Origin: Candidatus Saccharimonadota bacterium
GTDB taxonomy: Bacteria > Patescibacteriota > Saccharimonadia > Saccharimonadales > Saccharimonadaceae
NCBI GenBank assembly: GCA_028286395.1
Contig: JAQBRS010000003.1
Coordinates: forward strand, 1-64,000
Length of the DNA: 64,000 bases
Direction of reading: 5' to 3'
The position numbers and the translations under genes are program-made. Of this stretch, positions 33,068 to 55,969 are shown piece after piece (position 1 is the stretch's first letter; the number at the start of each line of letters is the position of its first letter). The notes under the pieces were generated by a model. It was not told where the DNA came from, searched no databases, and saw only the letters and a list, made by a program, of their open reading frames with translations.

Positions 33068-33089
33068 TAACACAGTGGAGGAACCGCTC

Positions 33090-33122
33090 CGGCCCGGGTA
33101 GCTTAAAACACTACCCGGGCCG
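33090..33122. other. Perfect GC-rich intergenic hairpin
   Basis: CGGCCCGGGTAG-CTTAAAACA-CTACCCGGGCCG. Confidence 0.85.
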
Positions 33123-33173
33123 AGCACTTCAATTATGCTGCCGAGAATACTCAGCATTGTAATCGAGGTGCTC
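33122..33173. other. Second, longer imperfect hairpin in tandem
   Basis: GAGCACTTCAATTATGCTG...CAGCATTGTAATCGAGGTGCTC. Confidence 0.7.
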
Positions 33174-33226
33174 ATTTATTGAGCAACTCGCCCGCACCTT
33201 AACATCCATCAGACCTTAGGAGAAAC

Positions 33227-34564
33227 ATGTACAACGATCAAACGACATCGTTCACGGCCCCAATCCGTGACGCGATCGGCCCGTTTTCGGGCTTCAGTCG
33301 TAATTATCCGAAAGACAGATCAGGCATCCGACTCGGGCCCATGCTCGATGTTCGCGAAGGCTTGTACTTCGACATGCCCAGAATGCGATCAGAGGGACGC
33401 TGCGGCGGCCCACTCGTTGGTATTCTCGGCGACAAGGACAAAGGAAAAAGCACGGTTGGCAAAATCCTCGCAACCGAGGATGGCGCAGTCTACAACGGCA
33501 TGAAGCAGAAACGCATTTATGCCGACAACCACCGCCACACGGAGTACGCAGAACTTGCGCGCTACTACAACAACAAGATGATCGGCCTCGACGAGAAGAT
33601 TAACGTCTTCGACCTCGAAGTCGGCTTCACGATTGCTGACCACCAGATCACGGGCGAGACACTGTTCGTTATCGCTAACGACGGTACCCGCCCGGTCAAC
33701 CACCAACAGTTTGTCATCGAGACAGCCGTCTTCAAAATGTTCGCTGATACCGAGCGTGAGAAGTCGGCCGAAAGTTTTGCGCGAATCCTCTTGGGACTTA
33801 CAGAACAGGACGGGTATAACTACCTTCTTGCTTCTGTGGATTTCAAAGACAAGACGCAGAACATCGACTGGGAGCAGTTCAAGCAAGATGCCGGCTACGT
33901 CGCTCAACGTGTCGTGCGATTCCTCAACGGATCGTTCGGTAAGACGATTGGCGGTACCGGCTCGATAGCAAAGCACCTGACAGGTGAGAACCTGCAAGGA
34001 GCCTCGCTTGGCCAGGACAAGCTCAGTCGGGCTACGGTGATAAACTTCTACCGGAAGGACGAAGCAACAACTGCATTCCTGATCAACTACCTCAACCGCA
34101 TCAGAACATCTGCGGAGGAGCGCGGAGATCGTCGTTTCATGTACGACACGGAATTGCATGACGAGAACTACGGCATGTGGGACTATTTCGAATACTCTGA
34201 CGACACGGTCAAGCGGAACAAGCGCAGCCGAACTTTGGAGAATGCTCCTCTGTTCGTGTTCACAACGCACAGTCTGCTGGACTACGGATCGGCAAAATAC
34301 AGCGAGTTGGCGTTTACGAACGCTCGCGGTATCGATGTGTGGTTCTTCTTCGGTATGGAGAAGTCTGCTGATCGCGAAGCGACCAGAGATTTCTTCAAGC
34401 TGTCGCCCATGGAAACGGAACGCCTGGCAAATTTGCAGGTGGGACAATTCGGATTCAAGGTCGGCAACGAAGATGTCCGATTCGCAGAGATCGTCCTGAC
34501 GCCCATGCGCAGACGACTCAGTTACACCAACAAGGCAAACGACGACGCACTCGTCCGCCGCTAA
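33227..34564 (+). CDS. VirB4/TraC-like T4SS ATPase
   Basis: P-loop GILGDKDKGKSTVGKIL; RRFMYDTELHDE Walker-B-like; APLFVFTTHSLLD. Confidence 0.78.
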   Translation: MYNDQTTSFTAPIRDAIGPFSGFSRNYPKDRSGIRLGPMLDVREGLYFDMPRMRSEGRCGGPLVGILGDKDKGKSTVGKILATEDGAVYNGMKQKRIYADNHRHTEYAELARYYNNKMIGLDEKINVFDLEVGFTIADHQITGETLFVIANDGTRPVNHQQFVIETAVFKMFADTEREKSAESFARILLGLTEQDGYNYLLASVDFKDKTQNIDWEQFKQDAGYVAQRVVRFLNGSFGKTIGGTGSIAKHLTGENLQGASLGQDKLSRATVINFYRKDEATTAFLINYLNRIRTSAEERGDRRFMYDTELHDENYGMWDYFEYSDDTVKRNKRSRTLENAPLFVFTTHSLLDYGSAKYSELAFTNARGIDVWFFFGMEKSADREATRDFFKLSPMETERLANLQVGQFGFKVGNEDVRFAEIVLTPMRRRLSYTNKANDDALVRR

Positions 34565-34578
34565 AGAGAGGAACTACC

Positions 34579-35175
34579 GTGTGGACTAACCTCCGCAAGT
34601 GGCTCCCCGCAGTGGTCGTAGTGCTTCTCATTCTCGTGATCTTTCTCGTCGTCCGTCCTCTGGTTGAAACACACCAGGGTTCGGACGGCGGAAAGACTGC
34701 GTCTACAAGCACACCATCACCCGCGAAGGGAACTGCTCAGCCCACGCCGTCACCCGACGCGTTGACTGGCCCAGAAGATTCAAGTCCTCCCATTCCCACC
34801 TGTAACCAGGAGTGGAGTGTGGGGGATTACGCACAGTTCGTCACGACACTCGAGAAGTACGAGGGTTTGTTTCAACAGCAGGCCCCCAGCGACTCGTTCA
34901 AGGGAATGGCGACCACGACGTACATCGCAAATCATCATGCTGAAATAGCTGAAGATCAAGGTGGTATCGAAGTGGTTGTTGATCCTGCGAAAACAGTGGT
35001 CACGTGTACGATACTCAGCGGGACTGAAATTCTCGCAGTGATCCAGCCGACAATCACTGTCTATCAGACAGGCGGCAACGATCGCACCCTTCTCAACGGG
35101 CCATTCCTGTCAAACTCACACGCAACGCGGTGGGTAAGGCAAGGTGGAAAATGGCTCATCGATAGTGAGTATTAA
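34579..35175 (+). CDS. Single-TM extracytoplasmic T4SS accessory protein (GTG start)
   Basis: TM anchor, Pro/Ser/Thr linker, small soluble domain ending RWVRQGGKWLIDSEY. Confidence 0.7.
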   Translation: MWTNLRKWLPAVVVVLLILVIFLVVRPLVETHQGSDGGKTASTSTPSPAKGTAQPTPSPDALTGPEDSSPPIPTCNQEWSVGDYAQFVTTLEKYEGLFQQQAPSDSFKGMATTTYIANHHAEIAEDQGGIEVVVDPAKTVVTCTILSGTEILAVIQPTITVYQTGGNDRTLLNGPFLSNSHATRWVRQGGKWLIDSEY

Positions 35176-35185
35176 GGAGTAAGTC

Positions 35186-36424
35186 ATGAGAATGAGGCCA
35201 GTGCTTTTTGGCGGCCTCGCTTTCGTGGTCGTCATTGCACTCGTTGTCGTGTTCTTCGTGTCCATTGGCATCGGAGCAGCTAACTTCATTACGGCTTGCG
35301 GTATCAATCCCGCTCTCGTACTGATACCGCCTGCTTCGGAACCAAAAACGACCGTCAACCCGACGCCCAGTGCATCGGCAACTTCAACGACGTCGCCCAC
35401 AGCGACGTCGACTCCTCAGCCCGGAACGTTGTTCGCAGCATTTCAGGCACAGCCATCGTTCACTCCCGCTAACCAAGCGGAACAGCGGAAGAATGCGGCA
35501 ACCATTGTTGCGATCGGCCTGCAGCGTCCCGAGAAGTTTTCTGACCGGGACATTGCAGTAGCAGTCGCAACGGCGATTCAGGAGTCGAACTTGATCAACA
35601 AGCCGTACCTCGGGAAGAACAATGACCACACGAGTCTGGGGCTGTTCCAGCAACAGACATCGGTGGGCACCTACGGTTCGGCAAGTGACATCATGAACAT
35701 CAATCACAGTATCAACGCGTTTTACGACCGGCTTGCCGGTGTTGCGAATAGAAACCAGATGTCCATGATCGATATCGCGATCAAAATCCAGATCCCCAAC
35801 CTGAAGGCGTATCACGCCAGATGGAAGTGGGATGACCTTGCAAAAGAGATCGTCGGCATTTACCACAGCGGTTCGTCATCATCATCGGGCAACGATAACA
35901 TTTGCTCGTTGGCGGCTGGCGTTTCATCGAGTGGTGACGTACATCTTCCACTCGATCCGGGTTATCACGTATCCGACGGGTTTAACGACCCGCGACCGAA
36001 CCTCAATATCGGATCGAAGCCTCATATCGGCATCGACCTGGTCTATGGTTCAAACACGCTTGGGAGACCGGTGTATGCCGCTTTCTCAGGTACTGTCGTG
36101 CAATCTGGCTACGGAGGTGGCTGCAACAAGTCGAGTAACAATCCTGTCATGATTCTGTCGGCAGACGGACTCGAAACGGGGTACCTGCATATGAACGGAC
36201 AACAGATCCTCGTGAAAAAAGGGGATACCGTCGTTTCAGGACAAAGGATCGGTTCGATTGGAAGCTGCGGCCAGGCAACCGGCCCACATCTTCACTTCGA
36301 AGTTACCTCTGTTAGTGATCACGAAGCATGGTTGAGCACTTTGACAACCGTCAACAAGTACGGTTCCGTCTGGCTTGACCCAAACGCCATCATGGCACAT
36401 TACGGCGTCAAGCTTCTGCCGTGA
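35186..36424 (+). CDS. Bifunctional cell-wall hydrolase: lysozyme/transglycosylase-like domain + M23 metallopeptidase
   Basis: AIQESNLINKPYLGKNNDHTSLGLFQQQTSVGTYG; HIGIDLVYG...GYLHMNGQQILVKKGDTVVSGQRIGSIGSCGQATGPHLHFEV. Confidence 0.9.
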   Translation: MRMRPVLFGGLAFVVVIALVVVFFVSIGIGAANFITACGINPALVLIPPASEPKTTVNPTPSASATSTTSPTATSTPQPGTLFAAFQAQPSFTPANQAEQRKNAATIVAIGLQRPEKFSDRDIAVAVATAIQESNLINKPYLGKNNDHTSLGLFQQQTSVGTYGSASDIMNINHSINAFYDRLAGVANRNQMSMIDIAIKIQIPNLKAYHARWKWDDLAKEIVGIYHSGSSSSSGNDNICSLAAGVSSSGDVHLPLDPGYHVSDGFNDPRPNLNIGSKPHIGIDLVYGSNTLGRPVYAAFSGTVVQSGYGGGCNKSSNNPVMILSADGLETGYLHMNGQQILVKKGDTVVSGQRIGSIGSCGQATGPHLHFEVTSVSDHEAWLSTLTTVNKYGSVWLDPNAIMAHYGVKLLP

Positions 36425-36540: not shown

Positions 36541-36571
36541 GAGCACCCTTGTCGGGTGCTCGTTTCATTTT
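36541..36571 (+). terminator. Intrinsic terminator at end of T4SS locus
   Basis: GAGCACCC-TTGTC-GGGTGCTC-GTTTCATTTTT. Confidence 0.75.
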
Positions 36572-38595
36572 TGCGTATCGGTCAATGAAAATACCCATGC
36601 GTCCATATACGTCCGCGAATTACCGTCATCGATATAGGCATCTTGTTGACCAGAAACCAACTGGGCTGCTTTATCGGGCTGAGCCAGCGCAAAATACATG
36701 AGGACGTAATCACCAAGCGCAACATTATAGTTGTCATTTCGAATTGAAGCGTTAATAACCGAGGTGATCGATGTACCGTCAGTAGCATATTGAAGCATCG
36801 CAGGACTCATAGGAATCAGCTGAATACCTAGTTTTGCGTTTGCCTCATCGCTAAAGAACGTTGAGTAGGTTCGTTTTCCGCCGAAACTAAGTGACGTCAG
36901 TGGGCTTGTGAAGTTTTTTAAGTATGCAGGTGAAGTATCAACCGTTCGCCAAGCCGCTTTTGCCGTGGCTGCTTCGTTTGAGAGCATCCACGACGCAGAG
37001 GACTGTAATTCAGTGTTATTCGTCAGTTGCGCCCACAATGCGACGCCATTCCAGGCATTAATTGCCTCTGAACTTGATTCCTGATTATTTCCGTCAGCAA
37101 ACGGTGACAATCCCGCCGCCCAAGAGTGGCCTGCGTAGGCATCATAATAGCGTTGAACAGGAAAGTTTGACGACGGTGCGTATGAAGCAATATCTGCGAC
37201 TAGGAGGTTAATCTTTTTTTGGGAATTATTTAGGAAATCTGCATCATATTTACCAAGAATACTTGCCGCATAAATGAAATATCCGTAATGAAAATGGTGA
37301 TCATTAAAGTCTTCTGATCCAAAAGCTTTTGTCTGCGCGGCGATGCCTTTTAGCGTTGGATCATAGTAAAAATATTGTCCATTGAGACGAGTAGAAAACC
37401 CGTCTTTTAAGATCGAGATCAGTTGGCTACTTTCCTTCTTTTGACCAAGTTGCTCCGCAATATCGAGGAGTGTAGCTGCTCTTGCAAGTTGTTTGCCGGC
37501 ATAATAGCTATCATTTGCGGTAATTGAAGTCTTTGCAACATCTGCAGGGAGGCTTGCGATCAGTTGTTGCTTGTGCGCATCACTAATACGTGACAGATCG
37601 AGCGCGTTCGACGGCTTCAGCGTCGAGACTGATGTTATGAAGGTATTACCCTTAACCGCCTTCATAGGTCCGTAAACACTGTCATACGTCGAAATGGCAC
37701 CATCATTCGAAGTGAGGCTACTATAGCTCATAGGAACAAACACAGTTGGTTGTAGATTTGCAGTTTTATATTCATAAGTGGTTTGTATTGTATCGTTTGT
37801 ACCCGCTGCATCAGAAGTCGAAGCACTCACCAGCTGGTTGCTCGCAAAGTTCTTCAAACCGTCTTTACTACTGCTATCAGGAAGTGCATAGAATGTCACT
37901 AAACTCTTGTTTGAAGCTTTAATCGTTGCCCTAGAGCCACTTGTCGTGATGCTAGCGCCACCACTCGCAGTAGCCACGTAGTCATGACCTGCTTTTGTAT
38001 AGCGAAGATACGTTGATGAACTGTCCTTCGTGGCTGTACTTATATCGCTGAGTGCCAGACTTGTGTCAGTACTTGAAGCGTAAAAAACGTACGGTGACCC
38101 CTCGGCTATTGTTAGCTTTGCTAACTCCTTTGAGCCGTTCTTATAGGTCAGTGTCGCCGAAAACTTATCGAAACGCGTCAACATAAAGTTAGTTGCGCCG
38201 TCTATGCTAGCTACTATGCCGGGTGTGTGTTCGCCCGTAATGACCGTTGGCTGAGACTGGACAGTGGGGAGTCCTATCTCAAAACCTACATCTTTCGCAA
38301 GAAAGCTGAGTGGCATTGGATACACAGGCAGTGGTGTTTTTTGTAAAACCATACCGCTGATCCATGAGTTTGTTGGAGGAATGATACTTTTATCAATACG
38401 GTCAGTGAATGCTGATGACCCACTCTTCTTCGGTAACGTATTCAGCGTCGCTTGATCGACCAACGGCGCGTGAGTAATAGCGAGTGGGTTCTTGATAACA
38501 TGCTTACCCACCAGTAGTGCGACCGTACCTACCGCGACGACACTGATAACGAGAATACTTCCCGCAATGATGCCGAGCTTTTTTCGATTCACCAT
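36565..38595 (-). CDS. GH81 endo-beta-1,3-glucanase, membrane-anchored
   Basis: PTNSWISGMVLQKTPLPVYPMPLSFLA; NDHHFHYGYFIYAASILGKYD; GHSWAAGLSPFADGNNQESSSEAINAW. Confidence 0.9.
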   Translation of the reverse strand: MVNRKKLGIIAGSILVISVVAVGTVALLVGKHVIKNPLAITHAPLVDQATLNTLPKKSGSSAFTDRIDKSIIPPTNSWISGMVLQKTPLPVYPMPLSFLAKDVGFEIGLPTVQSQPTVITGEHTPGIVASIDGATNFMLTRFDKFSATLTYKNGSKELAKLTIAEGSPYVFYASSTDTSLALSDISTATKDSSSTYLRYTKAGHDYVATASGGASITTSGSRATIKASNKSLVTFYALPDSSSKDGLKNFASNQLVSASTSDAAGTNDTIQTTYEYKTANLQPTVFVPMSYSSLTSNDGAISTYDSVYGPMKAVKGNTFITSVSTLKPSNALDLSRISDAHKQQLIASLPADVAKTSITANDSYYAGKQLARAATLLDIAEQLGQKKESSQLISILKDGFSTRLNGQYFYYDPTLKGIAAQTKAFGSEDFNDHHFHYGYFIYAASILGKYDADFLNNSQKKINLLVADIASYAPSSNFPVQRYYDAYAGHSWAAGLSPFADGNNQESSSEAINAWNGVALWAQLTNNTELQSSASWMLSNEAATAKAAWRTVDTSPAYLKNFTSPLTSLSFGGKRTYSTFFSDEANAKLGIQLIPMSPAMLQYATDGTSITSVINASIRNDNYNVALGDYVLMYFALAQPDKAAQLVSGQQDAYIDDGNSRTYMDAWVFSLTDTQK

Positions 38596-38600
38596 GCGTT

Positions 38601-39329
38601 TTAATGACCAAGCGGCTTAAATAGTTGCTGAATTGAAGTGAATAAACCTTGGAATATATTATCCTGATTTAGCTGAAGTGTCGCTTCTACCGGAGTACCG
38701 ACAGAGAATCGGAAGTCGCTAATATCGGCATTACTAATACGCGCTTTGACGACGGTATCAACGATATCTCCATTACTCACAAGTGCTACGGAGAAGATAG
38801 TTGCGGTCTGTGTACTATTATCTGGCAAACGGAGGCTGACCTTATTGGTTTTACTGATACGAGCATAGTCGGGAGGCGAAAGATGAAAATGAGCAACAAC
38901 GTAGAGCGAACCAACGGTATCAACGCTCGCAACAATTGCTCCGGCAGGTACGTATGATCCTGCGCGATAATCAATTTTTTCAATCACCCCCGCGTCATTT
39001 GCTTTGAGTTGAATGTAATTGGTCGTGGAGTCGACGCTAAAGGAGAGTGACGATGTCGTAATAAGACCCTTTGTAAGCGCATCATTTAGCTGGGTACTTT
39101 GAATCTCGAACAGCACTTGGCCTTTCGTTACTTTGTCACCTTCTTCAATGTTTTGCTTAACGATGAGTCCTGGATAGTCAGTGCCGACCGTGGTTGAGTC
39201 AGCGGCAAGCTCGGCTTTTGATGATTGCGAAACTGACATAATACCGTTGAGGTACATAGACAATGCGCCGACGATAAAAATGACGACTAATATACCGAAG
39301 ATGAAACGGACTCTACTTGTAAATTTCAT
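38601..39329 (-). CDS. HlyD/biotinyl-lipoyl-like membrane-fusion protein
   Basis: Single TM; DYPGLIVKQNIEEGDKVTKGQVLFEIQS and VIEKIDYRAGSYVPAGAIVASV half-motifs. Confidence 0.82.
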   Translation of the reverse strand: MKFTSRVRFIFGILVVIFIVGALSMYLNGIMSVSQSSKAELAADSTTVGTDYPGLIVKQNIEEGDKVTKGQVLFEIQSTQLNDALTKGLITTSSLSFSVDSTTNYIQLKANDAGVIEKIDYRAGSYVPAGAIVASVDTVGSLYVVAHFHLSPPDYARISKTNKVSLRLPDNSTQTATIFSVALVSNGDIVDTVVKARISNADISDFRFSVGTPVEATLQLNQDNIFQGLFTSIQQLFKPLGH

Positions 39330-41008
39330 TATAGTGCTCCTTCCGTGATGACTGTCGTTTTTGAACGTTTTGCTTCTCGCTTCTGTTCGCGTTTTTGCTT
39401 TCGACGCTGCTTCTTCAAACCTCTTGCTTCGGATAAAGCCATGTAAACGAAATACCCGAATACGAACGTATTAAGCGCGTTCCAGGCAAGAGAGATTGAG
39501 AATTGATCAGTGTAGAGGGCTTTTATTGCGCCGACAACACTCGTCAGAAGCAAGAATATGAATACGTACACCTGAATACGAACATAATTAAACGGCGAGT
39601 CATACGAAACGGTGTTCGTTGCGTGCCATGCTTGGTCGCGTCGCGTCAGTGCGTTGAGAAACGCCTTGATGTAAATAGGGAATGATACGTTTGAAAGCAT
39701 CAATGTCTTAAACTTGAATCCACCCATTGTGTAAAAGGCGAGGACGAGTTGCGAAACATAGAATCCGCTATACATAAGCCCCCATTGCCAGATAGGAATT
39801 GTCGTTGCAATTGGTGACAGGTTAAAGAAAATCTGTAGGGGAGGGAGGAGTAAAAGAAGCAGTACAGAAAAACCGATGAAATAGTAAGACGTGGTCGCAA
39901 AGTACTGAAGTCGCTGATCAATCGTCAAATGACGTCGAGTAAGCGGGTTGGCGCGAAGGAAGATCTCGAAGCTACCCGTTGCCCAACGAAGTTGTTGTTT
40001 TGAGTAAGCCATTAAGGTCTCTGGAGTTTTTCCAACAGCAAGAACGGTCGGAATGTACACCGAATCGTATCCTTTTTCGTGAAGGTGCAGTGATGTCCAT
40101 ATATCTTCCGATTTAGACTTTGTGACCATGCCGCCAATTGACTCGACTGCTTTTCGACGGAAGACAACGTTTGTCCCTACACAGAATGCGGCGTTGAAAC
40201 GGTTTTTACCTGATTGAATCAGTGAGTAGAAAACGTTTTGCATAAAGTTTGCCGCCGTCGACACAAAATTGTTCTGATTGTCGTAAAACTGTGGAGTCTG
40301 AACAAAAGCTAGGTTATCATTCTCAAAAAAGGGAATTGTTTCATATAAAATTGTTGGGTCAGCGACAAAGTCTGCATCAAGTATTAGATAAAAATCACCA
40401 TCAGTAACGCTGAGACCATAGTTAATATTTCCCGCTTTAGCATTATTGTGAACCGGTCGTCGAATGTATCCTACCCCAACTTGCTTTGCGAGGGCTTTGA
40501 CTTCATCAGAATCACCGTCGTCAAGAATGAGCGTCTTGTGCTTTCCGTAAATATTCTTTGCCGCAATAGCTGTTGCCTTAATCTCTTCAAGAGGCTCACC
40601 ATATACGGGTATATAGACATCAACTTTAATAGCCCTTCGATGAACGTACATTGGCACAGTTCGAGATATCTCAGCATCTTGTTTCTTTAAAATGCTAATA
40701 GCCGATTTACCAACTGCTTCGTTGTATAGTTTTGCCTGAGCACTGTGATACTCGTAGTTTCGCGGATTCATTCGACCACTAAGAATTGTCCAAAATGAGA
40801 GTAACCCCTGAATAATAATGAAAATCTCGGCAATAAGCGCTAATGTATATGGGAGCGGATCACCACGGTAGGCCGGCTGAAGCAGATAATTAAGATATAT
40901 GAACGCACCAATTGTTGCACCCGTAAGTATAAGCGTCACCGTCGGGGACGTTAACTGCTTTTCAATGCGATTAGCAGAATCCTGCAAGTTCTCTGTAGGT
41001 TTTGGCAC
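39329..41008 (-). CDS. GT2 processive glycan synthase, cellulose/curdlan-synthase-like
   Basis: DVYIPVYGEP; DADFVADPTI; QTPQFYDNQ; QQLRWATGSFEIF (QxxRW); multiple TM. Confidence 0.92.
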   Translation of the reverse strand: MPKPTENLQDSANRIEKQLTSPTVTLILTGATIGAFIYLNYLLQPAYRGDPLPYTLALIAEIFIIIQGLLSFWTILSGRMNPRNYEYHSAQAKLYNEAVGKSAISILKKQDAEISRTVPMYVHRRAIKVDVYIPVYGEPLEEIKATAIAAKNIYGKHKTLILDDGDSDEVKALAKQVGVGYIRRPVHNNAKAGNINYGLSVTDGDFYLILDADFVADPTILYETIPFFENDNLAFVQTPQFYDNQNNFVSTAANFMQNVFYSLIQSGKNRFNAAFCVGTNVVFRRKAVESIGGMVTKSKSEDIWTSLHLHEKGYDSVYIPTVLAVGKTPETLMAYSKQQLRWATGSFEIFLRANPLTRRHLTIDQRLQYFATTSYYFIGFSVLLLLLLPPLQIFFNLSPIATTIPIWQWGLMYSGFYVSQLVLAFYTMGGFKFKTLMLSNVSFPIYIKAFLNALTRRDQAWHATNTVSYDSPFNYVRIQVYVFIFLLLTSVVGAIKALYTDQFSISLAWNALNTFVFGYFVYMALSEARGLKKQRRKQKREQKREAKRSKTTVITEGAL

Positions 41009-45818: not shown

Positions 45819-47066
45819 CTATAGGTCGATTGGCATCGGGATAACTTTTCGCGTCGGCTTGCCAGTGATAGTTGCCGTGAAGTTATCAAGCCCAATACCG
45901 ATACCATACATTGGCGGTAGTCCCATTTCACAGGCATCAATCAGACGTGTGTCATTTCGGAATGCATCTTCAACATCTTCACCCGCTTGGCGAATGAGCT
46001 TCGCGCGTAGTTTATTAGGATTAACTTCTTCTTGGTAAGCTTTCACCATTTCAGCTGTCTTTAGCATGACTTGGAAAGCATCAGCAAAGCGTTCATCTGA
46101 CTTTAACGATGCGGCGAGCGGTAATTGATCGGAAAGGTATCCATCAACGATAAGCGGTGCATCAACAGTAGGGCGAACTCTTCGCTTGATGATAGCATCG
46201 ATGATACCACTAGCGCCTTTACTGTCAGCATCTTCGATTCCTACCGTTACTGCATACGCACGAAGGCCTTCAATATCATCTGCATCAATAAAGCTAAGGA
46301 TCTTGTCAAAGTTAACATCGTGCGCATGAAATAGTTCAGCGACTGATGCTTTTGGAATGTTCGTAAAATCGTAGTTTGCGCCTTGTGCAGAGGCAATACC
46401 GTTGAGCAAACGCTCTGTAAGATCTACTGCTTCGTCGCGTGTCTGATAGGCAGTATATGCCTCGATGTTCGTAAACTCTGGGTGATGGCGCGTGTCGATG
46501 CCTTCATTGCGGAATAGGCGTCCAAGTTCATAGACTCGTTCAAGTCCAGACAGTGCCATGACGACCTTTAGATCAATCTCGGGTGCAATACGTAGGTGTC
46601 GTGCACGTCCATCAAAGTTTGCGACTGTATCAAAAGTTCGAGCAGCAGCGCCCGAAGCGGTTTTTTGAAGAATACTTGTATCAACAGATACGTATCCATC
46701 GTTATCGAGAGTATCGTGAAGATTTCTTTGCATCGTATGTCGTCGCCGGAGCATATCAATATATTCGGCTTGAGCTTCATATCGCTCTTGTGTGTCGGCT
46801 CCAGGCCAACGAGGACGATCATTCGTTGCTACCGTTTGAACGGAGTCGGCGAATAGTGAGATCTGGCCAAGTCCACGACGAACACTTAACTCTGTTTCAC
46901 CAAGTTCACCAGTCGCTTCAACAATGTCACCAGTTTTAGTTGGCTGCTCAAGTCCATTCTTTGAAACAACTTGAGTAGAAGCTTCACCGGGGAGGCCAAT
47001 GTCCAAAAAAGTCACATTGCGTGATTCTCGGAGAGCCGTTACTTGTCCTCTGATGACCTCTGTCAT
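45819..47066 (-). CDS. lysS: Class II lysyl-tRNA synthetase
   Basis: YVSVDTSILQKTASGAAARTF; LRIAPEIDLKVVMALSGLERVYELGRLFRNEGIDTRHHPEFTNIEAY; start MTEVIRGQV about 47066. Confidence 0.93.
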   Translation of the reverse strand: MTEVIRGQVTALRESRNVTFLDIGLPGEASTQVVSKNGLEQPTKTGDIVEATGELGETELSVRRGLGQISLFADSVQTVATNDRPRWPGADTQERYEAQAEYIDMLRRRHTMQRNLHDTLDNDGYVSVDTSILQKTASGAAARTFDTVANFDGRARHLRIAPEIDLKVVMALSGLERVYELGRLFRNEGIDTRHHPEFTNIEAYTAYQTRDEAVDLTERLLNGIASAQGANYDFTNIPKASVAELFHAHDVNFDKILSFIDADDIEGLRAYAVTVGIEDADSKGASGIIDAIIKRRVRPTVDAPLIVDGYLSDQLPLAASLKSDERFADAFQVMLKTAEMVKAYQEEVNPNKLRAKLIRQAGEDVEDAFRNDTRLIDACEMGLPPMYGIGIGLDNFTATITGKPTRKVIPMPIDL

Positions 47067-47135
47067 AATATCTATGACTATACTATAAAGTCGGATAAAT
47101 GCAATATGCAAACGACTATTTAACAGATAAGAAGC

Positions 47136-48185
47136 TTACGCTAAGAAGACTCTTCCGAGCTTTCCGTCTATAAAAAGTGGCGTGGCATGTTGGATTTTTT
47201 CTATATCAACACCAACGACGCAGGCCTTTCCAAGTTCACGACAGACAACGGCTGAGTGAGATAGCATTCCTCCCATCCTTGTTACTACACCTTCAGCGGT
47301 CATGATATACATCATATCTGCAGGTGAAGTCGCACGAGCGATGAGGATTTTACCTGATGCCCAACCAGCTCCGTGTTCCTGGTCTAGTCGATATGCAGCA
47401 CCAGACGCGCTGTAAGGACTCGCTGCTTCACCGTTTATAACGCTTTCTTCGGATGTAACAACTTCTATGCCGCTTTGTTCACCGATTGCTTTTGTCACTT
47501 TCCTTAGCTGTAGCCATTGAATGCCATCTTCAGTGATACAAAATTCTAGATCAACATCGTAGCCTAGTTTTTCTTGGATCTCTTTACAGACCTCGGCAAC
47601 TGATTTTCCGTTCTTATCTCGTAGGATAGATGCTGCATCCATATTTACGATTAGGCCATCTTTGTCGTAAGTCTCATGGTATGGTTTAACTGTCCCGTCA
47701 ACAACGGCATCACCGCGTCCCTCGGTCCACTCTAGACGACCGCCAGAAGCGCCAGTACCCATCCAAACCCCACCAGCAGAAGGCTCTTTGAAACTTTGAA
47801 CGATAACGTTCATCTTAATATCTTCAAACGGAATACCCATTGCTTCACAATATTCTCTGACGTTAGCAAGTTCAACAGATCGTCGAACATCATTGATTCT
47901 GCCCGGGACTTGCTCGGCAGAGACATCAAGAAAACTATCAAATTGACCAGCAAAAGAGGAGTTTGCGCCATCTTCAATATTCGCTGAACTTCTTAATGCA
48001 ACTTTTCCAAATGAGGTGACGAATTCGTTTACGCGACCAAGAACCTCTGGGTCAGTAACGTCTGTGTTAAATGGGATCACAAAGTATTCTGGTACTTGAT
48101 ACCCCATTTCGCGCAGAATATTTAAGCCGATAGCTTTTCCACCTTGCTCCTCGGGATTTGTGGTATCATGTCTCAAATCATCCAT
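47136..48185 (-). CDS. PEP synthase/PPDK-like protein: ATP-grasp + phosphohistidine swivel domain only
   Basis: GKAIGLNILREMGYQVPEYFVIP; VALRSSANIEDGANSSFAGQFDS; TRMGGMLSHSAVVCRELGKACVVGV. Confidence 0.88.
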   Translation of the reverse strand: MDDLRHDTTNPEEQGGKAIGLNILREMGYQVPEYFVIPFNTDVTDPEVLGRVNEFVTSFGKVALRSSANIEDGANSSFAGQFDSFLDVSAEQVPGRINDVRRSVELANVREYCEAMGIPFEDIKMNVIVQSFKEPSAGGVWMGTGASGGRLEWTEGRGDAVVDGTVKPYHETYDKDGLIVNMDAASILRDKNGKSVAEVCKEIQEKLGYDVDLEFCITEDGIQWLQLRKVTKAIGEQSGIEVVTSEESVINGEAASPYSASGAAYRLDQEHGAGWASGKILIARATSPADMMYIMTAEGVVTRMGGMLSHSAVVCRELGKACVVGVDIEKIQHATPLFIDGKLGRVFLA

Positions 48186-48221
48186 TGCGGTTACTATACC
48201 ACGACAACCGTATAATGCAAC

Positions 48222-48752
48222 TTAGTGTTTTAAGCTAAATGCTTCAGCAATTAGCTTCACAGCCGCCTCTGGATCTAGTTCTGATGTGTTGATCTTTAAA
48301 GATTCGACAAATGGAATAGAATATATGTCCATCTTTTCTGTAATTTTCGCCATCTTTACAGGATCGGTAAGTTTTTTGTATTGCTTTCGAGAATCGCTAT
48401 CTACGCGTTTGATCAGATCTTCACGATTAGCCGTGAGCTCTACAAAATGCACTTCACCATGATTGCTCTCTATGATATCGATAAATCGTCGTATGTCGCG
48501 GTCGTCGTCTGTACCTTCGTAGACATATGTAAAGATAAGGTCGGTGTCGTGTTTTGCGCAGTAATCAAGAACTTCAAAGCGGATTGTATCAACAAGTGCA
48601 TAGTGTTGCCTTAGTGCATCTTTATAAATATTTTGGACAAGGTCACGAGAGAGGTGATTATGAAATAGTGGAATATCAGTACTCGCAGATAGCTTTTCTG
48701 CGATCGTGAGCTTACCCGAAGCAGGAGGTCCGTATAAGAATAGTAGTTTCAT
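48222..48752 (-). CDS. P-loop kinase-like (AAA) protein (ATG 48752)
   Basis: MKLLFLYGPPASGKLTIAEKLSAS Walker A. Confidence 0.85.
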   Translation of the reverse strand: MKLLFLYGPPASGKLTIAEKLSASTDIPLFHNHLSRDLVQNIYKDALRQHYALVDTIRFEVLDYCAKHDTDLIFTYVYEGTDDDRDIRRFIDIIESNHGEVHFVELTANREDLIKRVDSDSRKQYKKLTDPVKMAKITEKMDIYSIPFVESLKINTSELDPEAAVKLIAEAFSLKH

Positions 48753-48839
48753 GTCCGTCATTATAGCAAAATTTTATAAAATGCCACTACTGTTCCGGTA
48801 TTTACGTTACTCCGATTTCATGCTATAGTTTCTTCTAAT

Positions 48840-49997
48840 TTGTTATCGCTATTAATGGGGATGGCAGAGAGGACAATCGATCGTATGAGCAATGGGCCAA
48901 CGCCTGCACGAATCAACTCTCCGGAAACACTTACCGCGACGAATACAGCACGCGTAAACTTTCCGCCTTCTAATCATGAGCCAACGATCTTCTTTATTAG
49001 CGCAGACAAGCCTGGCTTACGCTGGGACGGTGCGCCACTTCGTATCATTACGGGGGTGGAGCAACACACAGACGTTCACCCGTCTTCACAATTTCTTGAT
49101 CAGCCATTATTTACGGTTCAGGACGGTGCTATTGTCTCGGCAGGCAATCGACTTGTAAATGCGGATGACTGTGACCCTATCTTCCTTACGAATCTTGCGG
49201 ATAGGTTAGCGGACGGAGATATGCCGTATCCCGAAGAAATTCGAGGGACCGTCATTGAACATATACGAGCCGCATTCTTGAAAGAGGGAACACCCCGAAT
49301 GTTCCACGACAGCCTTACGCCTTATACGAACGTCGTATTCAAGGATGACGAACGACCCGAAACGTACCGCGTCACGGGTAAACTGTTTTTTGAGAGTATG
49401 GCAACAAAAAACGTTCTTGCCTTTGATATTCACGATCTACTTCATCACCCGGTACAGCTTGCCGCCTGGCCTGAACAGTTCGAGTTTATTAGCAGAGCAG
49501 GTGCTGTTGCGCACGCATTACCAAAAGAAGTTGAGTACGCAGCTCGATTGAAAAAACTTACTCAACTGACATGGCTAGCTGGGTTTGAAGAATCTTTGAT
49601 CACAATGGACGAACAACTAGTAAGCTTCGGATGCCTGAACTGGCTATCGCCATCTGAAACTCCTTTAGATAAGAAGCCCGATATACGAACATTATCTATC
49701 GAGGAACAAAAGATTGCCTATCGTTGGCATTACTTGGATGCACTAAAAGACATGTTTAGAATTCAGACGGCCAATTCAGAACAGTTTGGCGAAAACCTTG
49801 ATTGGTTAGAGAAGCTTGGTTACAGTATGGATGCTAAGCTTAAGGCGCTTGTTGATAGTGATCATCCTCGTCCCTTCGAAGACCTTGACTACTTCGATGC
49901 GCTGTCATTTCATATAACAACCCCTGCGTCGCCCGAAGAACTATTTGCAAACGCCATACGACTTATTGAAGAGGAGTTTCAGCGTGTACAAAGGTGA
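48840..49997 (+). CDS. Hypothetical protein, first gene of ALDH-LysRS operon (start uncertain: 48840/48858/48885)
   Basis: Long ORF overlapping downstream gene; -10-like TATAGT upstream. Confidence 0.75.
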   Translation: MLSLLMGMAERTIDRMSNGPTPARINSPETLTATNTARVNFPPSNHEPTIFFISADKPGLRWDGAPLRIITGVEQHTDVHPSSQFLDQPLFTVQDGAIVSAGNRLVNADDCDPIFLTNLADRLADGDMPYPEEIRGTVIEHIRAAFLKEGTPRMFHDSLTPYTNVVFKDDERPETYRVTGKLFFESMATKNVLAFDIHDLLHHPVQLAAWPEQFEFISRAGAVAHALPKEVEYAARLKKLTQLTWLAGFEESLITMDEQLVSFGCLNWLSPSETPLDKKPDIRTLSIEEQKIAYRWHYLDALKDMFRIQTANSEQFGENLDWLEKLGYSMDAKLKALVDSDHPRPFEDLDYFDALSFHITTPASPEELFANAIRLIEEEFQRVQR

Positions 49998-52914
49998 TGC
50001 GATAGAGTTTGCTTTAGTAAACAAGCAGTCTCTTAAGATTGCGAATACGATAAAAGCAAAAAAAGGTGAGTTGATCGCAGCGCTGACAAAATACGAGACA
50101 TATAAAACCGCTGAAGATGAAATAGAACGAACACTCGACCTATTGACGAGCCTTGGAGAGAACAAACTGTACTTCAAAGAAATAGTAGGTCCTGTCGCGG
50201 TATTTATGCCCAGCAATCAACCACTGTACTCACTTGCGTGTTTTGCAATTGTTCCCGCATTCATGTCAAAAAAAGTGAGCGTAAAACCACCAGAAATTAT
50301 GAATGGTTTTTATGAAGAAATGTTAGCGATTTTAGACATTAAGAATACTGTGCCAAATATTGAGTACATGAAACTTTCTCGAAAAGAATGCCTCAGTATT
50401 TTCACGGCTACAAAACTAGATAAGCACACAAACCGACGACACCCACTATACGAGGCGGTGATATTCACAGGGACTACACAAAATGCGGATAAGCTAAGAA
50501 AGAAGTTTCATAGTTCGACACTATTTATTACAAACGGATCTGGGCATAACCCGATTGTCGTTACTGAGTCAGCAGATACCGATAAAGCAGTCGCCGGCAT
50601 CATGAGCGTACGCACGTATAATCAAGGGCAAGATTGTGCTGCGCCCAACTCAGTACTCGTGCATGCATCCGTCTACGATACTGTCCTCGAGCAACTCAGA
50701 AAAGCTATTGCTGCACTAAAAGTAGGGGAATACAGTTCACCTGAAACCGATATAGGCCCGATTAGCAGACCCGAAACACTATCTGCCGTAAAAGACTTCC
50801 TTTTAAGAAACAGCGTATACATCGACGAGACAACCGATGGCATTATTCGTGCACGCACCTTGATTATCGAACCAACAATAGTCACAAAACCTCTCAAGGA
50901 TGGCGCAAATTTCGAAGAACTATTCGCTCCAGTGTTTGTCATACAAAAATATGAAGATGATACTGATTTAAATAATTACTTCGAAGATAAACAGTATGCG
51001 GACAACGAAATGTATACCACTGTTTACGGAGCGAGCACCTACGTGACCAATTTTGTCACTAGAAAAGAAATGATCATTCATGATACCGATTTACATGCGC
51101 CAGGTATTGAGCGCGGCGTTAAGCCTTATGGTGGCTACGGACGTGGGGCATCGTGTATTAGTAAAGACGGCAGTATCGTTAGTTGTCCAACATTGCCACA
51201 AAGAGACCTATTCGAATATCTTGTTTTAAAAAAGAAAATCGATCCAGGCGAAAAACGTAGTGAAAAGAAACCTGACTTTCAAAAATCAAATCGAAGTATT
51301 CTCAAAAAAAATATGCACTGGAGTGAACGTCTCGCAGATCGTGTCATTAAGCAATTCCCGGATCAAGCCGTGTACACTTGTGCCGCCGGGATTAGTCCAT
51401 CTGGTGTTGTTCACTTTGGTAACTTTAGAGACCTGTTTACATCGCATGTCGTCTCGGAATCACTTATCAAGAAAGGCAAGAAAACAAGGCTTGTACTATA
51501 TTGGGATGACTTTGATAGTTTCAGAGAAGTACCCGCAGATATTGATCCAACTTTCGAAAAATATATAGGAATGCCCTATAGCCAAATTCCTTCTCCGGAT
51601 GGTACGTATGCGTCATATGCAGAAAAGTTTGAAAAAGAGTTTGAAGCCAGCATCAAAGACATGGGTATCGAAACCGAATATGTCTATCAAACAGTCGAAT
51701 ACAAATCGGGTACCTACGATGACCTTATCATCCATAGCCTCAAGAATCGGAAAGCTATCGCCGATATCCTTCTATCGTTCATGTCAGAACAAGCCAAAAT
51801 TGAAAAAAGCATCGATGACGCAACATATAGAGAAGACTACTATCCTATCGTCCTTTACTCACGATTTACGGGCAAAGATAACACAAGGATCTTGGGCTAC
51901 GATGGCACATCAATTATTACTTACAAATGTTTCGATACGGGTAAAACCGAGTCAGTTGATATAACGAAAGATCATATCGTAAAACTTTCGTGGAAGATTG
52001 ACTGGGCAATGCGTTGGAGCAAAGATCGTATTGCCTTTGAACCTGCTGGATCGGATCATGCTTCTCCAGGAGGTAGTTTTGATACTTCAAGTACTATTGC
52101 GACAAAAATATTTAGTTCAATTCCACCAGTACTCGAAGAATATAAGTTTGTCGGTATTCAGGGTGTTGGTGGTAAAATGTCTAGCGTGAAAGGTGGTGTT
52201 GTTTCGCTTAATAACTTACTCGATATATACACTCCGGAGATGCTGAAGTGGCTGTACGCAGACAAGCCTCCAGCGCATTCATTTGAGCTTTCTTTCGGTA
52301 AAGATATATTCAGGCAGTACGATGAGTTTGATAAGGCTACAGCAGGTCTTAATAGCGGTACGATCGACAATGCGCTTATCACCGCATTAGATTTATCGGG
52401 CGTAGCGGCATCAAGTACCCACGCACCTATTTCCTTCAGACAACTTTTAGGATTAGGTCAAATAGTCCAGTGGGATAAGAAAAAGCTAAAAACAATCCTC
52501 GATAATCAAGAGCTAGTATTTGATTCTAAGCTTATCGACACAAGACTGGCGCGAACAAGAGCTTGGCTAGAACGATATAACGAAGACGAGGCGATTACTA
52601 TCCAGTCTGACTTTAATCACGACTATGTCTCGTGTATGACTGTTGAACAAATTGCACTAGTGAACCACCTCTATGAGTATCTTGCAGATAATAAAACTAC
52701 GTCTATTGATGAAATCAATGTTGCGATCTATGACATTCCCAAGGTAGAGGGAATCGGCATGAACGAACTAAAAACTCGACAAAAAGCCTTTTTTAAAGAT
52801 ATCTATAATTTACTCATCAATGATACTACCGGCCCAAGATTATCAACGTTCTTATGGGCCGCAAACCGCAAGAAAGTGCTACAACTTCTTGATATTAAGG
52901 AGTACTCGTCATGA
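49984..52914 (+). CDS. Fusion: aldehyde-dehydrogenase-superfamily domain + class I lysyl-tRNA synthetase (GTG 49984 with SD GAGGAG preferred over TTG 49945)
   Basis: ALDH: VGPVAVFMPSNQPL, IFTGTTQNADKL, NQGQDCAAPNSVLV, EELFAPVFV. LysRS-I: CAAGISPSGVVHFGNFRD (HIGH-type), DWAMRWSKDRIAFEPAGSDHASPGGSFDTS, GVGGKMSSVKGGVVSLNNLLDIYTPEMLKWLYA. Confidence 0.92.
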   Translation: MYKGDAIEFALVNKQSLKIANTIKAKKGELIAALTKYETYKTAEDEIERTLDLLTSLGENKLYFKEIVGPVAVFMPSNQPLYSLACFAIVPAFMSKKVSVKPPEIMNGFYEEMLAILDIKNTVPNIEYMKLSRKECLSIFTATKLDKHTNRRHPLYEAVIFTGTTQNADKLRKKFHSSTLFITNGSGHNPIVVTESADTDKAVAGIMSVRTYNQGQDCAAPNSVLVHASVYDTVLEQLRKAIAALKVGEYSSPETDIGPISRPETLSAVKDFLLRNSVYIDETTDGIIRARTLIIEPTIVTKPLKDGANFEELFAPVFVIQKYEDDTDLNNYFEDKQYADNEMYTTVYGASTYVTNFVTRKEMIIHDTDLHAPGIERGVKPYGGYGRGASCISKDGSIVSCPTLPQRDLFEYLVLKKKIDPGEKRSEKKPDFQKSNRSILKKNMHWSERLADRVIKQFPDQAVYTCAAGISPSGVVHFGNFRDLFTSHVVSESLIKKGKKTRLVLYWDDFDSFREVPADIDPTFEKYIGMPYSQIPSPDGTYASYAEKFEKEFEASIKDMGIETEYVYQTVEYKSGTYDDLIIHSLKNRKAIADILLSFMSEQAKIEKSIDDATYREDYYPIVLYSRFTGKDNTRILGYDGTSIITYKCFDTGKTESVDITKDHIVKLSWKIDWAMRWSKDRIAFEPAGSDHASPGGSFDTSSTIATKIFSSIPPVLEEYKFVGIQGVGGKMSSVKGGVVSLNNLLDIYTPEMLKWLYADKPPAHSFELSFGKDIFRQYDEFDKATAGLNSGTIDNALITALDLSGVAASSTHAPISFRQLLGLGQIVQWDKKKLKTILDNQELVFDSKLIDTRLARTRAWLERYNEDEAITIQSDFNHDYVSCMTVEQIALVNHLYEYLADNKTTSIDEINVAIYDIPKVEGIGMNELKTRQKAFFKDIYNLLINDTTGPRLSTFLWAANRKKVLQLLDIKEYSS

Positions 52915-53486
52915 TAGGTGGCATTGAAGACCGTCACAAACAGCAAATACATGATGCTATTAACGATATCTATGGCTCTACGAACATAGAGGCGGCATTT
53001 ATCACCGGAAGTGTTGCAGCAGCGAAAGCAAGACCTGATAGCGATGTGGATATATTCGTCTGTCACGGTGACGCAATCGATTCACCTGAAGATAAAAAAC
53101 AAAAATTCACTGATTTCTATTTTGATCTTCATGCGCAACTGGGTCGAGAACCAGACCCAATTTCACCCGGTGAGGTATTGTCACTTTCTGGCCTTACCTT
53201 GGCGACACGGAGAATACAAAATGTTATGCCAAGCACGGTATTATATGAGCGCGACGATTTTGATGCAATCTGTTGGGCTGGCATGCTAGTAAGTAAGCGA
53301 GACATATTGATGCCATATTCCGAACATATGGAATCACTACGAAAAATATCTCGATTGGTCGTTTATAAATGGGCATCCGCCCTCACGGTCGGTGAATCAC
53401 TGACAGAAGAAGCAGGTGAGTATTCGGACGTCGACAAGGTCCTACGTAGAACAATTAGTAGCCCTGGCTACTATGATGCACACTAA
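52911..53486 (+). CDS. Minimal nucleotidyltransferase (MNT/pol-beta superfamily)
   Basis: AAFITGSVAAAKARPDSDVDIFV (GSxAx..DxD); ATGA overlap with fusion gene. Confidence 0.85.
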   Translation: MIGGIEDRHKQQIHDAINDIYGSTNIEAAFITGSVAAAKARPDSDVDIFVCHGDAIDSPEDKKQKFTDFYFDLHAQLGREPDPISPGEVLSLSGLTLATRRIQNVMPSTVLYERDDFDAICWAGMLVSKRDILMPYSEHMESLRKISRLVVYKWASALTVGESLTEEAGEYSDVDKVLRRTISSPGYYDAH

Positions 53487-54553
53487 AAGTTAAATTCTCT
53501 TTGTGCATTGTCGTGAAATATGGCTTGAACATGCGCGTCTACTTTTCTTGCCGAAACAAGGCCACGGATTGCAACCAAAAGTGCGTCTTCTTGCTGTAGC
53601 TCACAGTACATAAGGTTTTCTGGTAAAAGATGCTTATAGGCATCATACTCTTGCGGGTCTACCCAATGATAAGGATAGTCCGTTAAAAGACGCGGGCCTT
53701 TGACGGGATTAACATATGTAAATTCTCGTAGTAAATTTAGTGGTTCATCTGAGCCATATAACACTCTCTGAGGCCCAAGATGCGCCAGTGTCGCCCGTAT
53801 GATTGCACTATTCGTCACGCCAGATGTATCAACAGTGATGTTCTTATAGCCGGCAATCTCTGCCATTGTGGTGTCGAAATCAGTGGGTAGAGTCCATGTA
53901 ACTCCAGCGTGCGCAAGCATAATCCTCAAATTTGGGTAATCCTGTACAAGCATTCGTATCTCGTCCATCGACTTCGATACGGTCTTCGGCAAGTGCAATA
54001 TGATCGGCACAGCAACTTTTTCAGCTATTTCTAGCACTTGGGGAGGGAAGTATTCGTATAAATTTTTCTTTTCTTCAGCAGTAGAGCAGTAATACATTTT
54101 TAAAGCGGAATATTTTCCAGACAGTAATTCTTCTCTGGTATATTCAATCTCTTCATCATTTTCAGATACACCGAACAGCGCAACCCTGTCCTGAACGGGT
54201 GATTGCTCGATCAAGTAGTCATTTACCGCCTTGTGGTCTATTCCTCTGAATGCGTGAGCAAAACGTAACTTTCGTACACTCATACCTGGATGTAGCAGTG
54301 CGTCTATTTGTTGTGACTGTTCGATTGTCGTTTCTGGAAATGTACTTGCCGACTTATCTAAGATAGTTTGGGCCTTAGTGATATCAAAATGATCCTCTTC
54401 ACTTGCATGGACATGTGCATCAATGATAGACGAAGGAAGTTCCTTATTAAGTTCGTCTATAAATGCGACCTCGTAGTCCATCGGCTTCATACTATGCGCA
54501 AAATATGCAGCAAAATCAGGAGATGGTAATTGTTCCACTGTACTCATAATCAT
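53483..54553 (-). CDS. Amidohydrolase (amidohydrolase_2 / metal-dependent TIM-barrel hydrolase)
   Basis: IDAHVHASEEDHFD; IILHLPKT; IMLAHAGVTW; VLYGSDEPL. Confidence 0.85.
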   Translation of the reverse strand: MIMSTVEQLPSPDFAAYFAHSMKPMDYEVAFIDELNKELPSSIIDAHVHASEEDHFDITKAQTILDKSASTFPETTIEQSQQIDALLHPGMSVRKLRFAHAFRGIDHKAVNDYLIEQSPVQDRVALFGVSENDEEIEYTREELLSGKYSALKMYYCSTAEEKKNLYEYFPPQVLEIAEKVAVPIILHLPKTVSKSMDEIRMLVQDYPNLRIMLAHAGVTWTLPTDFDTTMAEIAGYKNITVDTSGVTNSAIIRATLAHLGPQRVLYGSDEPLNLLREFTYVNPVKGPRLLTDYPYHWVDPQEYDAYKHLLPENLMYCELQQEDALLVAIRGLVSARKVDAHVQAIFHDNAQREFNF

Positions 54554-54652
54554 TAATATACGACATTATTTATTGATCTGCAAAAACAGTTTATAAATAA
54601 TAACTGCTCGTGCTTGCTAAACCACAACCTACCACCGATAATATACATACAT

Positions 54653-55969
54653 ATGAGCACCCAGCAGATACCATCCGGAGAACTGCAAACAGGTAAAAAC
54701 CTTCTTTCTTACCTAAGTCCTGAAGAAAAACACAAATTAGTCGGTAGTTTTGTCATTGAAGATTTCTGGGATACTTTCAATGAAGAGAACAGCGACCCGA
54801 TTGACAGGTTTAGACAACTTGCAAAAGAATCTATCCCAGAATTCATTGAAGCGTACCAAGATGTCTGGGATTATGTAGTCGACATAAATGAACTCGATGA
54901 TACTTTCTTAACTGAGAGTATTGAAAAGAATACAGTATTTAACGGGCTGAGTCTTGAAGAACTACAGATCGCAGGTAACCTCTTGAGTCTATCTCTCTAC
55001 TCTGAGCTTGAAAAAGACTGTCTCATGGCACTCAACAAGACCATTCTTGGTGAGCTTACTGACGGCTTAAGAGCAAAGTACGGTTTTAGTGATGACGAAT
55101 ACCAGTTACTCATGACGCCATCCTTTGAAACCTTCTTTACGAAGTATCACTTTGATCACCTTGAATATGCGATTAATGAAGATCCTGAATCAAAAGCCGA
55201 ACAAAGAGAAGCGTTAATACGTAACTTCCATGCTAATGACCCCGCATTATTCGAACTAAGATTTGCAGATATGCATTTCCCAGTTGTCGACAACATGGGA
55301 GAGATGCTTGCAATGCAAAAAGGTATGCTTGCACAAAGGGCCGCGAAAAAAGTAGCATTCATTGGCGAAAGAGAAGATCTTACCGCATTCGAGAAACTGC
55401 TTGAATATGATAATTTTCTAGACTTTGAGTATCGATACAACCTGGAAGCTTGTCCAGAGTATTATCTCAGAAAGAAGCTATTTGCCGCCTGCCAAGAAAA
55501 CGGCATATTCACAGACCTTACCAGCCCTATGGCGTTGAAAGACCCTGAGTTCATTGACGGCGTTAATAAATTGATCAATATACGATCGACAAAATATATT
55601 ATCGATGCTCATCCAACACTCGACACCGATGAAGTTAGTATCGATGGCTCAAAAGAAACAATCTTGAAATATCTAAAAAAAGGTTCACCCGTACTCGCTC
55701 GACGAAAAGGACAAGATCAATCAGATGAAGTCATCACAATCGTTGGATATGAGAATAAAAGTATCATCGCCAAGAACAGTGACGATCAGTATTCTGAATT
55801 GAGCGATACGGAACTTGCATCTTACCAGTTATTCTCTGCTTTACAGAAGTACGATGAGCTGGTGACAGAAGGCTTAAAAGCTTCGATTAGAGTATTTAAC
55901 AAACGTACTCCGTACCTCAACCGCGCGGACTACGAACATGGCTTTCAGGTTTTGCCTTTAGCAAGTTAG
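54653..55969 (+). CDS. Hypothetical protein, ~438 aa (ATG 54653)
   Basis: Long ORF; segment KYGFSDDEYQLLMTPSFETFF loosely resembles linker of PEP-mobile-domain proteins. Confidence 0.75.
   Translation: MSTQQIPSGELQTGKNLLSYLSPEEKHKLVGSFVIEDFWDTFNEENSDPIDRFRQLAKESIPEFIEAYQDVWDYVVDINELDDTFLTESIEKNTVFNGLSLEELQIAGNLLSLSLYSELEKDCLMALNKTILGELTDGLRAKYGFSDDEYQLLMTPSFETFFTKYHFDHLEYAINEDPESKAEQREALIRNFHANDPALFELRFADMHFPVVDNMGEMLAMQKGMLAQRAAKKVAFIGEREDLTAFEKLLEYDNFLDFEYRYNLEACPEYYLRKKLFAACQENGIFTDLTSPMALKDPEFIDGVNKLINIRSTKYIIDAHPTLDTDEVSIDGSKETILKYLKKGSPVLARRKGQDQSDEVITIVGYENKSIIAKNSDDQYSELSDTELASYQLFSALQKYDELVTEGLKASIRVFNKRTPYLNRADYEHGFQVLPLAS

Follow-up and report, generated by a model that had tools for sequence, protein, structure and literature searches.

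In the LuxE/LuxC fatty acid reductase of the lux operon, an acyl-AMP-forming enzyme feeds a reductase of the aldehyde dehydrogenase (ALDH) superfamily, which yields the aldehyde via a Cys thioester. Glutamyl-tRNA reductase (HemA) turns an aminoacyl-tRNA into an amino-aldehyde, also through a Cys thioester. Reductases of activated acyl groups in the ALDH superfamily do without the general-base Glu, in the absence of which hydrolysis of the acyl-enzyme is disfavoured. As regards lysyl-tRNA synthetases (LysRS), the original prediction for the locus described here had considered the co-occurrence of class I and class II enzymes to be known from a few methanogens only, which was too narrow, since PMC2916919 also describes both in Bacillus cereus/thuringiensis. 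The present genome (852 kb, 99% complete), with a gene content resembling that of Saccharibacteria/Patescibacteria, encodes a protein in which an ALDH-family domain is fused to a class I LysRS. The gene lies in the window, by which we mean the whole stretch of DNA analysed, namely 64 kb at the start of a contig of 248 kb. On the basis of sequence, we consider it on balance probable that the fused protein acts as a specialised aminoacyl reductase within a horizontally spread biosynthetic cluster, which would activate lysine and reduce the lysyl group to an α-amino-aldehyde.

The fusion gene (49984-52914, + strand, 976 aa) starts with a GTG codon preceded by GAGGAG. Its first part (49984-51240, +) encodes the ALDH-family domain at residues about 13-410, recognised by PF00171 (E about 1e-33 to 1e-34) and by alignments, and its second part (51313-52911, +) a complete class I LysRS at residues about 440-976, with the catalytic core (HFGN, KMSS) and the C-terminal anticodon-binding domain. 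This half scores 335 bits against PF01921 and 366 bits against TIGR00467 (cut-off 148), the latter over its full length at aa 457-972 of the open frame. The motifs HFGN, KMSS, DWAMRW, PAGSDH and GPRLSTFLWA are intact, lysine-pocket motifs included. By sequence, the C-terminal half is a class I LysRS (LysRS1), and aminoacylation of tRNA-Lys is predicted for it. The original prediction had correctly placed a class I LysRS domain within this gene; it overlooked the ALDH fusion and the cluster around it. A congeneric genome (G152) carries a counterpart on its single contig that is 63% identical over the whole length (66% in the ALDH half), in the same gene order, so that the fusion is neither due to chance nor to misassembly, the latter being ruled out by this synteny on one contig.

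The two LysRS-type genes of the window belong to a cluster of eight genes (45819-55969), which is complete in G152, with the same gene order, protein identities of 62-81% and different flanking genes. The fusion gene is overlapped at its start, by 14 nt, by a gene for a protein without family match (48885-49997, +; 67% identical in G152), and at its stop, by 4 nt, by a nucleotidyltransferase gene (52911-53486, +; PF18765/PF01909) with a relative in G152; these overlaps suggest that the three genes probably form one unit. From a short gap upstream of 48885, a second unit runs in the opposite direction and comprises a small P-loop kinase-like protein (48222-48761, -; weak AAA_18 match; 68% in G152), a PEP-synthase/PPDK-like protein with the ATP-grasp and phospho-His domains only (47136-48185, -; PF01326, PF00391; 67%) and a class II LysRS-like protein (45819-47066, -). 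An amidohydrolase (53483-54553, -; PF04909; 76%) and a protein with no family match in Pfam or NCBIfam (54653-55969, +; 62%) complete the cluster. The protein at 48885-49997 has no match in Pfam, NCBIfam or PDB and, apart from the copy in G152, is absent from the 379 other sampled genomes of the phylum (380 searched, with a match in the source genome only). The predicted structures of the two family-less proteins, computed from 2-sequence alignments, have a mean pLDDT of 44 and 42. No NRPS domain was seen in the cluster, and no Rfam element except one tRNA in its surroundings. A defence system was considered and rejected, as the only PADLOC matches, on the nucleotidyltransferase and on the small kinase, were weak and generic. 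Elsewhere in the window, a cellulose-synthase-like GT2, an HlyD-like protein and a GH81-type (endo-1,3-beta-glucanase family) protein are encoded consecutively (36565-41008), possibly as a unit for beta-1,3-glucan synthesis or export, next to a possible type IV secretion-like block (31475-36424) of large ATPase-like proteins without Pfam match followed by an M23 peptidase.

The source genome encodes three LysRS-type proteins, namely the class I fusion, a divergent class II protein in the window and a housekeeping class II enzyme on another contig, C3. The last of these (C3, 52717-54162, 503 aa) is intact and scores 426 bits against TIGR00499, just below the cut-off of 428, as in the congener; it is the housekeeping LysRS of this genome. 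It had escaped the original prediction because contig C3 lies outside the window, and the gene at 45819-47066 had been taken instead for a standard class II LysRS. That gene is real, and its product of 415 aa, with a truncated N-terminal part, is 81% identical in G152, but it reaches 200 bits against NF001756 (cut-off 468) and 189 bits against TIGR00499 (cut-off 428). Motif 2 is kept, whereas motif 3 reads GIGIGLDN (GxGxGLDN) in place of the usual ending in DR or ER, the Arg being replaced by Asn; GLDN is found in both carrier genomes. This motif 3, together with an identity of only 26% to the enzyme on C3, indicates an accessory paralogue rather than a housekeeping enzyme. The two classes are thus present together, with the class I enzyme as first described and its close neighbour not a standard class II LysRS.

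The proposal that the class I copy is specialised rather than housekeeping holds, in view of the separate intact class II LysRS, the fusion to ALDH and the sporadic occurrence (two genomes of the genus), although not for the reason first given: many families elsewhere in the order appear to use class I as their housekeeping LysRS, so that genome reduction is no argument against such a role. This latter distribution could favour a simple replacement of class II by class I, the outcome against which the original prediction was set. Such a replacement is extremely unlikely, as it is contradicted by the intact enzyme on C3, by a normal class II LysRS in both carriers, by the sporadic fusion and by a LysRS1 half that does not derive from the order's own LysRS1. 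It is also very unlikely that the system is a reserve or stress LysRS in the manner of B. cereus LysRS1, in which LysRS1 and the class II paralogue would together serve to charge either tRNA-Lys or an RNA resembling a tRNA, with the ALDH as an incidental part. The LysRS1 half is indeed intact, and LysRS1 and LysRS2 are described together in B. cereus and Methanosarcina (PMC2916919); however, none of the 37 tRNA genes of the genome is a dedicated extra tRNA-Lys, the paralogue is without the motif 3 Arg, and the ALDH half is conserved in the congener and paired elsewhere with other activating enzymes. In the same tRNA set, as given by ARAGORN, those for Ala and for Ile (GAT) are missing, possibly owing to introns or assembly gaps.

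Within a partial sampling of genomes, the cluster is absent from about ten other genomes of the genus, G152 being the only other carrier. The fusion is sporadic in the genus. Other families of the order have a standalone LysRS1, about 30% identical to the fusion half; two such genomes were checked and contained no class II LysRS over cut-off. The phylogeny called for in the original prediction places the LysRS1 half of the fusion far from the LysRS1 of its own order, as sister to that of Yanofskybacteria (97/89) and then Clostridia (100/100), and the Yanofskybacteria and Clostridia genomes of this tree have no class II LysRS over cut-off. Since its nearest LysRS1 is that of Yanofskybacteria, the half was probably acquired, and the tree is consistent with a housekeeping-type LysRS1 from another lineage having probably been recruited into the fusion. 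Two clostridial LysRS1 (L038, L039), from genomes without a class II LysRS over cut-off, bear an extra C-terminal region of ~130 aa. A phage or viral origin was rejected, as no relatives were found in viral contigs and the matches to phage records were weak, the annotated ones being ordinary ALDHs.

The ALDH half keeps Asn78, Cys218 and Glu312, and its general-base Glu is replaced (ELGG to NGSG). It is therefore not a hydrolytic aldehyde dehydrogenase by sequence, having the Cys and not the Glu of such enzymes. The same holds for its relatives, which keep the oxyanion Asn, the catalytic Cys (GQDC or GEDC), the Glu of the nicotinamide-ribose site and a TG motif. In all 13 aligned members the general-base Glu is missing, with Asn, Ser, Phe or Leu at its position (NGSG, NGAG, NGGG, SGVG, FGSG or LGSG, against ELGG in ordinary ALDHs). 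These proteins are monophyletic with respect to ordinary ALDHs (support 100/100), and a profile of the ALDH half gives more than 400 bits for members and less than 100 bits for ordinary ALDHs. The ALDH of the fusion thus belongs to a distinct family, delimited here by sequence, in which Cys and Asn are kept and the general-base Glu is lost. Pfam LuxC (PF05893) matches the window ALDH at E=0.06, against about 1e-34 for PF00171, which places it outside LuxC; two of nine family members match LuxC weakly (best E=5.6e-5). The glutamyl-tRNA reductase family gave no match to the fusion in Pfam or among the NCBIfam matches listed. Members are rare. At 1e-15, the ALDH half matched 5 of 380 genomes of the phylum, one of the five with an ordinary ALDH. 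Matches occurred in 4 of 74 genomes of the taxonomic family f99, again with one ordinary ALDH; no member was found in 398 genomes of the phylum of a Clostridia genome of the comparison (G864), which is an uncontrolled negative. It could be argued that the protein is an ordinary ALDH that oxidises a lysine-derived or other aldehyde, with the fused LysRS merely sensing or channelling lysine. The ALDH fold, the aminobutyraldehyde dehydrogenases among the nearest NCBIfam matches and the precedent of SbzJ, a true oxidising ALDH in a cluster containing an aminoacyl-tRNA synthetase (PMC6331615), are in line with this explanation, which we nevertheless regard as quite unlikely given the uniform loss of the general base and NCBIfam scores at about 10-15% of the cut-off.

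The partners of the Glu-less ALDH differ between genomes of Patescibacteria and give the best clue to its function. The source genome and G152 have it fused to a whole LysRS1, and G512 to the C-terminal (tRNA-binding) part of LysRS1 only (NF001968 E=8e-6; tblastn E=8e-11). The class II LysRS of G512 is normal, and none of class I scores over cut-off in that genome. In G780, a complete extra ArgRS is encoded on the strand facing the ALDH gene, the other ArgRS of this genome being on another contig. ArgRS-like proteins also lie beside the ALDH in G046 and G043; they have no recognisable HIGH/KMSKS but do have the N-terminal domain, outside of which the similarity to ArgRS is weak. The ALDH locus of G674 runs into a contig end, and no synthetase is near the ALDH in the stretches read of G595 and G398; in G398, a nucleotidyltransferase related to that of the window lies near the ALDH, with a transposase between them. 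Thirteen Streptomyces plasmids encode ALDH homologues (E 1e-36 to 1e-43 among the matches listed). Four of these proteins group inside the Glu-less family, and in those three of the four regions read that are annotated, genes for a TPP enzyme and an adenylate-forming (ANL) ligase come after the ALDH gene, with no aminoacyl-tRNA synthetase in the annotated stretches, which argues that tRNA is not a universal partner of the family. Judging from these gene neighbourhoods, the Glu-less ALDH is coupled across lineages to an acyl-adenylate-making enzyme or to a remnant of one. The Streptomyces plasmid loci L138 (14884-19956), L140 and L141 are biosynthetic clusters that contain, besides these three genes, GNAT and ATP-grasp genes. 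Related putative membrane proteins (E=1e-32) are encoded in the ALDH regions of G046 (L045, 8889-9860) and G398 (L054, 14312-15154). A sensor region (ADSxxPxAxxDxD) is shared near the ALDH of G512, G595 and G674 (L052, 5806-7323; L053, 9459-10919; L069, 1555-7012), carried by histidine kinases in G512 and G595 and by TrmB-like regulators in G674; matches between these two kinds of protein reach E=1e-58. This shared membrane sensor gives a hint of a signalling link; histidine kinases are common there, and the three genomes belong to one family.

As to substrate, reaction direction, product and role, we infer the following as the most economical scheme. The LysRS1 half would activate L-lysine to lysyl-AMP, and probably to lysyl-tRNA, and the lysyl group would pass to Cys218 of the ALDH half as a thioester. 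In place of the hydrolysis of an ordinary ALDH, NAD(P)H would reduce this thioester to lysinal, an alpha-amino-aldehyde. A reductase of activated acyl groups is what would be expected of a family that keeps the Cys, the oxyanion Asn and the nicotinamide-ribose Glu without the general base. It can further be hypothesised that the nucleotidyltransferase, the phosphotransfer enzyme, the kinase, the amidohydrolase and the class II LysRS paralogue tailor or conjugate the product, and that lysinal or argininal would lead to protease-inhibitor-like compounds or signals. The retention of the tRNA-binding part without the catalytic core in G512, G046 and G043 suggests that the ALDH may there act on charged tRNA supplied by the housekeeping enzyme. 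The intact LysRS with its lysine-pocket motifs, the separate housekeeping LysRS and the sporadic occurrence with the same gene order in G152 speak for a reductase; the G595 and G398 ALDHs without a nearby synthetase and the limited ArgRS similarity in G046 and G043 speak against it, as does the lack of an extra tRNA-Lys, since tRNA used as a carrier would be in competition with translation. Another explanation is that no aldehyde is made, the Cys acting as an acyl carrier only, or the ALDH as a scaffold, while the lysyl group is handed to another molecule of the cluster. Such transfer by paralogues of aminoacyl-tRNA synthetases is known from biosynthetic clusters (SbzA, PMC6331615) and would agree with the missing base for thioester hydrolysis, but the family retains Glu312 of the nicotinamide site as well as the TG motif, which suggests that the cofactor is still used, and we hold this explanation to be unlikely. 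Returning to the reductase, we put forward more tentatively that the family may be a new one of ALDH fold, with lysinal or argininal formed by reduction of lysyl- or arginyl-tRNA, and so a second kind of aminoacyl-tRNA reductase next to HemA, whose products may serve Patescibacteria as signals or as protease inhibitors.

In the open-access literature, we found no published fusion of an aminoacyl-tRNA synthetase with an ALDH and no aminoacyl-tRNA reductase of such a kind. Should the proposal be correct, the activation of amino acids for translation would be linked directly to a reductase, and this in bacteria regarded as poor in biosynthesis; the family would also help to find amino-aldehyde products where NRPS genes are absent. 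It predicts Cys218-dependent formation of lysinal, testable with one purified protein. Among the known systems, B. cereus resembles the present genome in having both LysRS classes in one bacterium, and differs by T-box regulation and, in the excerpt of PMC2916919, by no reported ALDH fusion. The biosynthesis of SB-203208 likewise involves an aminoacyl-tRNA synthetase-like enzyme and an ALDH in one cluster; SbzA and SbzJ are, however, two separate enzymes with separate steps, and SbzJ oxidises an aldehyde (PMC6331615). Peptide aldehydes made by NRPS reductase domains (leupeptin, livipeptin; PMC10548850) share the product class, with a C-terminal basic amino-aldehyde (argininal), whereas activation here would be by an aminoacyl-tRNA synthetase. 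HemA is alike in the proposed chemistry only, as its fold is unrelated, its amino acid is glutamate rather than lysine or arginine, and here the synthetase is fused or adjacent. The LuxE/LuxC system follows the same logic as that proposed for the fusion, the difference being that the activating partner is here a fused aminoacyl-tRNA synthetase, and that its ALDH half matches PF00171 far better than LuxC.
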